Source: Bacteroidota bacterium
GTDB taxonomy: Bacteria; Bacteroidota; Ignavibacteria; Ignavibacteriales; Melioribacteraceae
NCBI GenBank assembly: GCA_021801605.1
Contig: JAJYXU010000105.1
Coordinates: forward strand, 1-45,449
Direction: 5' to 3'
DNA length: 45,449 bases
The notes beneath the pieces are model-generated. The model had not been told where the DNA came from, did no database searches, and worked only from the letters and a program-made list of their open reading frames with translations. Positions 42,748 through 45,075 of the stretch are shown one piece after another. A program made the position numbers and the translations under genes. Numbering within the stretch: position 1 is the first letter of the stretch; every line of letters starts with the position of its first letter.

Positions 42748-42775
42748 GCAAGAAGCTAGAGGTTTTACTTCTCGC
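42748..42775 (-). terminator. Possible terminator hairpin overlapping the end of the T9SS gene
   Basis: Minus strand: GCGAGAAG...CTTCTTGC followed by TTTTC. Confidence 0.45.
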
Positions 42776-45075
42776 TATTTGAGTAACAACATTTTTTTGC
42801 CAGCAGTATAATTGCCAGCTCTTAGAATATAAAAATAAACACCGCTTGGTAGAGCGATTCGGTGAATCGCTCCTACATTAAACATAACAGAATAATTTCC
42901 TGGTGGTTGTTCTTCATTTACAAGTGTTGCAACTTCCCCTCCAAGTACATCAAAAACTTTTAAAATAACATGTTGTAAAGACGGAACATGTCCCGTCTCT
43001 ACTGATGGAATTGTATATGAAATTGTTGTTGATGGATTGAAAGGATTGGGATAATTCTGACTGAGCGAAAATTCTTTTGGCAAATCGATGTCTCGAACAT
43101 CTGTCACTGTAACACTTGCCTCGTTGCTGTATCCTGATCCCGCAACATCGGTGTATGCCTTAATTCTATAACTATATGTATAACCCTCTGCGACTTTATT
43201 ATCAATATATAACGTTTCAATAGTGTGCACAGTATCAATCACAGTATAGTTGTTATTATTTATTTTTCTCTCAACGATAAAACCAAATTCACCATTTGAG
43301 TTATCGCGCCATGTTAGTTTTACTTCTTTAGAATTTGTTAGCATTGCAGTTAGTTGATCCGGCTGCGGAATAATCGTAACGAAATTCCAGACATCGGACA
43401 TCTGGCTTGTGCCTGCCGTGTTCTTGGCTCTTATCCGCCAATAATATCTCTTGCCATGATTTACTAATGTTATTTGTTTAACAGTATCCGTCAAAACGGA
43501 ATCACTAACCAATACTTGATTGAATGCTACATCACTCGCTATTTCACATCGATAGCTATCCGCATACGTTGTTTTATGCCACATCAAGTTTAATTGAGTC
43601 TGCAAATTATTTTGACCGTTAGACGGGTAAACAAGTGTTGGCTTATTCGGCACAGTTGCAACTTCTTCAACGTAGATTGGAACGGAAGAAAGTGCTAAAG
43701 TTACCTGCCCATTCGTAACGGACGCAGTTGAAGTGTTGAATGTCGGATTACCGGAATTATCAAGTATAACACTTCCGTTTCCGTCAAGCTGAGGAACACC
43801 TTTTGTAGTTTTCACACTAGCAGTAGAAATACCGGATAAAGTAACATTCCCGTTTGCATCGTCCCACAAAAGATAAATCGGTTTTCCTGCTGCTGTGAAT
43901 TTGAAATTCCCTGAAGTTTGGTACTGTCCGGACTCAGCGTATGCATTCTGTAATGCTGAAGAATAAGCGTCAATTTTATCCGCCATGAGCTTGTGTGAAT
44001 AGTACACCGCTTTTTTAGTTGTCTTGTCTATATTTACGAATGCAACCTTGCTTCTCCAATCCGTTTGATCGGAATAATAGAATACCCAGAATAATTTAGA
44101 GACACCGTTCGCAAGCGCATAAGAAGCTTGCTTAATCCACCATCCCGCCTGATATGTTGTAGATTGGTTGGGCCATGTTGTTCCATCCAAATTGGAAGCG
44201 GTACCTGAGTATGTGCCTGTTTCTGTAAGCCAAATTTCTTTTCCCGACAAACCATACACAGATAAAAGCTGCTTCCAGTAGTCAATATAAACTGAAATAT
44301 CCTGTGAATATTCACCGACAAAAAAGTGGAAATTAAAAATGTCGAAATAGCTTCCGGCGTTTGAGCGATTTAAAGCTCCTTTCCAAAATGAATCTACTTG
44401 ATTTAGAAATCCACGCGAGTCATATATTGGCGTTGCGCCTGCAATAACTATCTTGACATTGGGATAAACAATTTTTGCGGTATCACGAGCAGCCTTAACA
44501 GTCTCCATAAAATCATTATACGTTCCCGGTGCATCCCCGAAAGTTTGTAACTCAGGCTCGTTACCTATTTCATAGTACCTGATAGGATATAAAAGTCCCG
44601 GCATATCATTGACACCGTCGCCGTCATATCGTTCAACTAGTTTTGCTATGAAACGTTTAAATGCAGTCATGTTGTTCGGCTTATCGTAATTCATATCGTT
44701 CTTACCGGGCTGATCCCACTGAGCGAACGGGTGAACAAGAACGAGCAATTGCAGACCTTCAGCTTGGATCCTATTTACAAATGCATCCGGCTTAGACCAA
44801 TCGTAAGTTCCTTGAACCGCCTCAACAACGTTCCATCTAAATTGTCCGCCGGTAGGACTAAGAGTTCTGTTCCATGCCATGTTCATGTTTCTCAAACCGG
44901 AAGCTTCCCATCTGTAGGCGTTGTCCAATTGCTGTGGTGTAAGAAGAAAGAAATCAGCAGTCTCAAATCCATCTACACCAAAGTGTGATGATTCGGAAGG
45001 AGTCCATGTCTGAGCAATCGAATTCAAAGCTAAAAAAGTAAAGACAATGAAAAATAACAATCTCAATCTTTTCAT
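42775..45075 (-). CDS. Clan GH-A glycoside hydrolase-like protein with fibronectin-type modules and T9SS type A C-terminal sorting domain
   Basis: Signal peptide; YYEIGNEPEL and IWLTETGTY; FnIII-like modules; SQNYPNPFNPSTTISYTIP...LPSGVYFYILRAGNYTAGKKMLLLK. Confidence 0.88.
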   Translation of the reverse strand: MKRLRLLFFIVFTFLALNSIAQTWTPSESSHFGVDGFETADFFLLTPQQLDNAYRWEASGLRNMNMAWNRTLSPTGGQFRWNVVEAVQGTYDWSKPDAFVNRIQAEGLQLLVLVHPFAQWDQPGKNDMNYDKPNNMTAFKRFIAKLVERYDGDGVNDMPGLLYPIRYYEIGNEPELQTFGDAPGTYNDFMETVKAARDTAKIVYPNVKIVIAGATPIYDSRGFLNQVDSFWKGALNRSNAGSYFDIFNFHFFVGEYSQDISVYIDYWKQLLSVYGLSGKEIWLTETGTYSGTASNLDGTTWPNQSTTYQAGWWIKQASYALANGVSKLFWVFYYSDQTDWRSKVAFVNIDKTTKKAVYYSHKLMADKIDAYSSALQNAYAESGQYQTSGNFKFTAAGKPIYLLWDDANGNVTLSGISTASVKTTKGVPQLDGNGSVILDNSGNPTFNTSTASVTNGQVTLALSSVPIYVEEVATVPNKPTLVYPSNGQNNLQTQLNLMWHKTTYADSYRCEIASDVAFNQVLVSDSVLTDTVKQITLVNHGKRYYWRIRAKNTAGTSQMSDVWNFVTIIPQPDQLTAMLTNSKEVKLTWRDNSNGEFGFIVERKINNNNYTVIDTVHTIETLYIDNKVAEGYTYSYRIKAYTDVAGSGYSNEASVTVTDVRDIDLPKEFSLSQNYPNPFNPSTTISYTIPSVETGHVPSLQHVILKVFDVLGGEVATLVNEEQPPGNYSVMFNVGAIHRIALPSGVYFYILRAGNYTAGKKMLLLK
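42849..42876. repeat. 28-nt palindromic repeat inside CDS (type gtagagcgattcggtgaatcgctcctac)
   Basis: Near-perfect inverted repeat; encodes VGAIHRIAL on the minus strand. Confidence 0.8.
42975..43002. repeat. 28-nt palindromic repeat inside CDS (type gtaaagacggaacatgtcccgtctctac)
   Basis: 17-nt overlapping arms with 2 mismatches; encodes VETGHVPSLQ on the minus strand. Confidence 0.8.

Follow-up and report, generated by a model that had tools for sequence, protein, structure and literature searches.

What is a 28-nt palindrome doing within the codons of a secretion signal, and why does one sorting domain hold two of them? The initial annotation of this locus described a palindrome encoding VGAIHRIAL at 42849-42876, quoting the coding strand of a gene that lies on the minus strand, and the element is present there as described. 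Within the window (the whole stretch of DNA that was analyzed, 45,449 nucleotides long), the following features bear on the question.

42775..45075, minus strand: host gene, an open reading frame for a 766-aa protein with a signal-peptide-like N-terminus, a glycoside-hydrolase-like domain, Fn3 and a T9SS sorting domain
42778..43056, minus strand: T9SS type A sorting domain, 93 aa counted from NYPNPFNP
42975..43002, minus strand: first palindrome, GTAGAGACGGGACATGTTCCGTCTTTAC, a 28-nt double-foot GTAG REP encoding VETGHVPSL(Q) in loop b2-b3
42934..42951, minus strand: loop b3-b4 (DVLGGE), free of inserts and reported to be essential for T9SS recognition in P. gingivalis
42849..42876, minus strand: second palindrome, GTAGGAGCGATTCACCGAATCGCTCTAC (coding strand), encoding VGAIHRIAL in loop b5-b6

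The glycoside-hydrolase-like domain of the host protein gave a weak match to GH39, and the SprA translocon is encoded in this genome. Uninterrupted sorting domains of the genome are 80 aa long, 13 aa shorter than that of the host gene, which scored 19.8–26.2 bits against Pfam PF18962 (cut-off 27) and 20.6 against TIGR04183 (cut-off 23) with its inserts in place. Removal of both inserts raised the PF18962 score from 26.2 to 34.2 bits. Because palindrome inserts lower profile scores in this way, repeat insertions account for some sorting domains falling below the cut-offs, and hence for their missed annotation.

The second palindrome is composed of GTAG, a 9-bp stem, a 3-nt loop and TAC, and is imperfect in that its 3' foot lacks the C of CTAC. 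The first, 126 bp away measured from start to start, ends in TTAC. As single-stranded DNA the second palindrome has a folding energy of -9.0 kcal/mol, whereas its shuffled versions average -1.96 (z = -5.4), and 0 of 200 shuffles reached that value. In the host protein VGAIHRIAL is flanked by NYSVMFN and PSGVYFY, where the annotation had expected native ASxL, in agreement with the uninterrupted domains. The net change relative to ASxL is only +5 aa, so the event was something other than a simple addition of 28 nt.

The GTAG palindrome family and associated transposases

The repeat origin that the annotation proposed depended on the genome holding other GTA...TAC palindromes of about 28 nt. A census by model and pattern searches of the own genome (3.24 Mb, 189 contigs) found them: a covariance model of the class recovered, with E <= 0.01, 21 distinct sites, of which most are GTAG/CTAC palindromes, although this model (R1) misses the second palindrome of the window and may under-count the 29-nt type. 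The pattern GTAG-purine-C ... G-pyrimidine-CTAC matched 9 sites, compared with 1 for the reversed control, and the 28-nt family to which the first palindrome belongs has about 20 recognizable copies.

Sorting domains hold 10 of the 21 sites, in eight genes (two on contig C87 with two REPs each, and genes on C29, C123, C130, C153, C33 and C73, the last with a truncated domain). Three sites lie within Y1 transposase ORFs (C33, C35 and C174), two adjoin such ORFs and six are elsewhere. The 61 copies of the sorting domain make up ~0.44% of the genome, and the number of REPs expected there is ~0.1 of the 21. This excess is large, even if the first-site copies of five genes, which have a flank of ~10–20 nt in common on both sides and may stem from one insertion followed by duplication, are counted as a single insertion. 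Relatives also carry the family, with matches in 27 of 39 genomes and in 11 of the 12 of the same genus (the own genome counted; one without a match). About 5 of some sixty top-scoring palindromes of the relatives were in sorting domains, a share smaller than in the own genome and still high, and 3 further ones were in a VELTSF-type Fn3-like domain. In other secreted proteins (L131, L134 and L196) a VELTSFTA-type Fn3-like domain also carries in-frame GTAG REPs in one of its loops.

The annotation called the cores of the two palindromes unrelated, and here its description needs revision, as they represent two families, the 28-nt GTAGAGAC and a 29-nt GTAGGRGCG type, of one class with shared GTAG/CTAC feet. 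The 29-nt type is laid out as GTAG, stem, 3-nt loop, stem and CTAC. A search of the own genome for the core of the second palindrome gave no further copy within 3 mismatches, and the class-wide pattern, run on 146 genomes of the order, returned beside the second palindrome only one element in genome G111 and one on contig C73. Both of these relatives end in CTAC. The C73 relative is 29 nt long and lies in the truncated sorting domain, and two more (C173 and L100) are 28 nt long and in frame. In G111 the core GGGGCGATTCACCGAATCGCCC recurs within a transposase ORF (G111:C89), where it is read as AIHRIAPTL. The in-frame 29-type copies of sorting domains (window, C173 and L100) are each one base below 29, and the second palindrome looks like the 29-nt type minus one C of its 3' foot, a one-base loss that gives 28 nt and thereby keeps the reading frame; this deduction draws on three copies that are possibly not independent. 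Copy number offers no support for recent mobility of this type, its exact core being single in the own genome.

The second palindrome has the 5' GT[AG]G foot on a stem-loop that marks the REP class, and ends in TAC where the class has a C[TC]AC 3' foot. Linkage to, or location inside, a tnpA_REP gene was found both for the 28-nt family (C35, C33, C174 and relatives) and for the second core (the G111 ORF). REPs lie on either side of the C35 Y1 transposase ORF (35733 and 36389) and one lies within it (36069). In C174, C33 and ten transposase ORFs of relatives, an in-frame REP directly follows the HUH motif (MPNHIHG), as in MPNHIHGIIIINPA[VETRHASSLQ]NKSITLSNIVGSFK. Double-foot REPs, which have GT[AG]G at one foot and the complement at the other, are the hallmark of TnpA_REP subclass 2.4, or RAYT group 4, whose REPs sit in frame inside the transposase between HUH and Y (PMC6006769). 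The transposases found here carry MPNH[IFL]HG, for which group 4 has NH[IFV]H, along with WQ and an internal REP, and their best NCBIfam match is the REP-associated tyrosine transposase (REP_Tyr_transpos). The link to RAYT group 4 indicated by these motifs is strong; it stops short of formal membership because the NCBIfam score is below the cut-off and the Y motif is YIEQNP (YIHLNP in C35), compared with YIxNNP of group 4. The second palindrome is best explained as a double-foot GTAG REP, a class tied to RAYT group 4 / TnpA_REP subclass 2.4.

Two other arrangements were observed among these elements. One Y1 transposase gene of a relative (L195, G038:C1:558000-559700) has several tandem REPs after HUH (VETGHAVETGHAVETGHA). 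Next to a gene end in the own genome (G000:C83:25225-25282) lies a GTAG...CTAC element of 58 nt whose inner hairpin is longer (GGGGCATC...GATGCCTC type), possibly a REP dimer or a nested insertion.

Loop tolerance, recurrence and turnover

An AlphaFold2 model of the host sorting domain has seven strands (mean pLDDT 83) and places both inserts in loops: the first (residues 29-38) separates strands 2 and 3, and the second (residues 71-79), where model confidence is lowest, separates strands 5 and 6. Weak fold matches of the modeled domain include T9SS substrate structures and the RgpB/mirolase CTDs, and a PDB sequence search gave no relative. Among 72 domains, the segment between the b3 end and the b4-b5 turn was 17 residues long in all 71 scorable by the glycine landmark, so that loop b3-b4 is constant in length, and the b2-b3, b5-b6 and b6-b7 loops vary in length by steps. 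Work on P. gingivalis found loop b3-b4 and the C-terminus to be essential, and enlargement of the RgpB b5-b6 loop from 3 residues to 11 left export, cleavage and anchoring unchanged (PMC11285876). The loops that are tolerant in nature agree with those tolerant in that experiment. The annotation's proposal that both palindromes are repeat-derived and lie in β-sandwich loops able to bear such peptides has thus stood up, on the family, the model and the published mutants.

Native b5-b6 loops of the own genome (L066, L068, L069 and L073) are of 4 aa (ASNL) or 9 aa (GTDNFGGKV), and the palindrome peptides, at 9 aa, match the longer of the two, an agreement in length that may help the loop to accept them. 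In other sorting domains (L101, L113, L078, L114 and L118) loop b2-b3 is occupied by two unrelated long in-frame palindromic repeats, PLNPSPYQGEGxRER from CCCTCTCCTTACCAAGGAGAGGG and HTPTFGFPSREGNTRGVF from CCCCTCTCGAGAGGGG. Because unrelated palindrome families share the same loops, tolerance is favored over the target of one enzyme, and selection would act on whatever inserts, though some site preference may contribute. In the b2-b3 loop of L120, a second palindrome, CCTGCCTGCCGGTAGGCAAGG, is nested in the middle of a GTAG REP with the frame intact (VETHLPAGRQGRDASLL). Other recurring peptides (SSPDKSGSEF, DTSLRSVF and PSAGSGQGF) are found in loop b6-b7 (L114, L118, L101, L078 and L124), and DNA resembling that for SSPDKSGSE also occurs at the own-genome loci L091 and L093.

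When 84,980 species were scanned for a palindrome followed by SGVYF codons, with a pattern that itself fixes the right junction, the frame and the 5' GTAG, 26 cases emerged. Nearly all were from Ignavibacteria (Melioribacter, Ignavibacterium, Stygiobacter and others), and most were good hairpins in intact sorting domains. In the unbiased set, 13 of 13 sorting-domain copies were in frame 0. The left junction at the second site takes one of three positions: after Y, where the length is unchanged, after FN, which adds 5 aa, or after FNx, which adds 6 aa. The cores of second-site hairpins covary, with 40 both-side changes against a shuffled mean of 12.8, and are 97% paired. In the named-genome set the 3' ends are skewed toward TTTAC, but this skew does not count as evidence of codon selection, as the search pattern required 5' GTAG.

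The orthologue comparison rests on one species of the same genus (G010), whose host protein is 84% identical; the contig of G003 stops before the domain, and the locus of G016 was followed only to a point before the C-terminus. At the first site the G010 insert has decayed (GTAGAGACAGGGCGCGTCTCTTCCCAAC), with its pairing gone and its length and frame kept. The second site of G010 is 15 nt shorter and is occupied by another element (from GTAGAGACGTTCCATGGAACGTCTTTAC), whose junction is of the Y class. Because both element and junction differ, the second site was filled or refilled separately. And because the first insert lost its pairing while keeping its length, it is frame and length that are preserved and not the hairpin itself. 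The annotation had reasoned that orthologues keeping the residues without palindromy would count against a repeat origin; that situation is partly seen at the first site of G010, where it fits the decay of an old insertion and not its absence. The annotation's view that the two insertions were independent is likewise sustained in part. In its favor, G010 keeps the first insert in decayed form and has another element and junction at the second; on the other side, the five first-site copies with shared flanks may reflect one insertion and duplication.

Explanations and known systems

In our judgment it is very probable that a GTAG double-foot REP of the RAYT group 4 kind, a small mobile element without a transposase of its own, entered the codons of the sorting domain, and was kept because it lay in frame in a dispensable surface loop. 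The sequence of the hairpin assigns it to a class of mobile palindromes. A RAYT would have copied it, as is suggested by the REPs that flank and lie inside RAYT genes, and comparison with uninterrupted domains shows that its insertion replaced native codons. Only in-frame survivors confined to loops are seen, and we infer that selection explains this pattern. VGAIHRIAL would be a passenger in b5-b6, and since it spares the strands, the essential b3-b4 loop and the C-terminus, secretion should still work, so that proteins with inserts are probably exported as in the analogous P. gingivalis mutant. The DNA hairpin would have no job in the host gene, serving the copying of the element and decaying afterwards. 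None of the sites compared was both empty and identical to the ancestor, and the account therefore does not extend to how insertion proceeds chemically (target, loss of native codons and fixed right junction).

The alternative that survives best, which we consider possible but clearly the lesser one, is that a single ancestral REP at each site was spread by duplication of the sorting domain and gene conversion, its cores diverging while palindromy was kept by hairpin-templated correction (template switching), a history that would call for hardly any new insertions or for none. The shared flanks of the five first-site copies, the constant right junction at the second site, and the clustering of insert presence on the domain tree (9 changes compared with 23.7 when shuffled) all agree with such a history. 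However, the tree of 58 columns is too short to decide, and the three left-junction classes, the two element lengths at the second site, and the different element and junction in the sister-species orthologue (G010) speak against it.

We find it rather unlikely that a RAYT prefers these positions, in CTACCAAG or AACATGT contexts, in place of random insertion followed by purifying selection. The same two codon positions recur in the same frame, as in the 13 unbiased copies, the right junction is nearly fixed, and other copies have a weakly A-rich outward flank. Yet flank composition at 46 non-domain copies revealed this weak A-rich preference only and no target motif; the C that directly follows CTAC in the second-site context is the rarest base elsewhere (4/92); the left junction varies; and the occupation of the same loops by unrelated palindrome families points to tolerance. 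An extended form of this idea, in our opinion similarly doubtful, is that group 4 RAYTs of Ignavibacteria direct REPs to b2-b3 and b5-b6 loop codons as a safe harbor in common with the post-HUH loop of the transposase, with the open VETxxxxSL / VGAxxRxAL frame and the targeting having evolved for life in protein loops. If so, mobile palindromes would diversify secretion signals while living in protein loops.

Retention of the hairpin for regulation or mRNA stability near the 3' end of the gene seems quite improbable to us. The hairpin is stable, ~75 nt separate it from the stop codon, and the literature credits REPs of other bacteria with an ability to stabilize mRNA; but the first palindrome of G010 is unpaired with length and frame retained, most sorting domains are without a hairpin, and the positions follow the protein loops and not the distance from the stop codon. 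Neither palindrome is a chance product, and an origin by codon usage or as an ordinary loop peptide motif has next to no probability, for while short palindromes are common in AT-rich DNA, twenty simulated windows (second-order Markov) yielded 10 comparable 28-nt palindromes and 0 with GTA...TAC, the folding energy and the covariation also oppose this reading, and the genome-wide GTAG family refutes it.

In-frame palindromes within genes are already known from Rickettsia (PMC2229807) and from REPs (PMC3733652). The elements described here resemble the subclass 2.4 double-foot REPs (Quentin et al. 2018, PMC6006769) in their GTAG 5' foot and, apart from the C missing in the second palindrome, in the complementary 3' foot; that paper reports self-insertion, and other genes only generally, whereas the host in Ignavibacteria is, repeatedly, the sorting domain of secreted proteins. 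GTAG-tagged REPs (Di Nocera et al. 2013, PMC3733652) are likewise hairpins of 20–40 nt, some of them intragenic and in frame, but the copies reported from within genes occupy replication/repair genes and others, and Ignavibacteria are absent from the text of that paper. Rickettsia palindromic elements (Ogata et al. 2000; PMC2229807) are also in-frame palindromic repeats tolerated as extra peptides. They are 105–146 nt long, unrelated in sequence and without a RAYT link, in contrast to the 28-nt second palindrome with its GTAG feet, and identity with them was rejected on length, sequence and organism group, which leaves an element that works alike without being a member. The T9SS CTD (PF18962 / TIGR04183; PMC11285876) is, like the host domain, a seven-strand β-sandwich with a conserved b3-b4 loop and C-terminus; the difference lies in the two repeat-derived loop insertions and the Pfam score just under the cut-off.

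Among the open-licence papers listed, none describes palindromes or REPs hosted by T9SS sorting domains, and peptide and DNA words returned only unrelated primers. Repeated colonization of this domain therefore appears to be undescribed. It carries group 4 REPs beyond self-insertion in their transposase, into a large family of secreted proteins that belongs to a different phylum. For mobile DNA the sorting domain acts as a safe landing pad, providing a natural case in which mobile palindromes would persist in coding DNA only where the domain bears them. The repeated insertions would also give a readout of the tolerant and intolerant loops of T9SS sorting domains, one that matches the mutational map from P. 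gingivalis.
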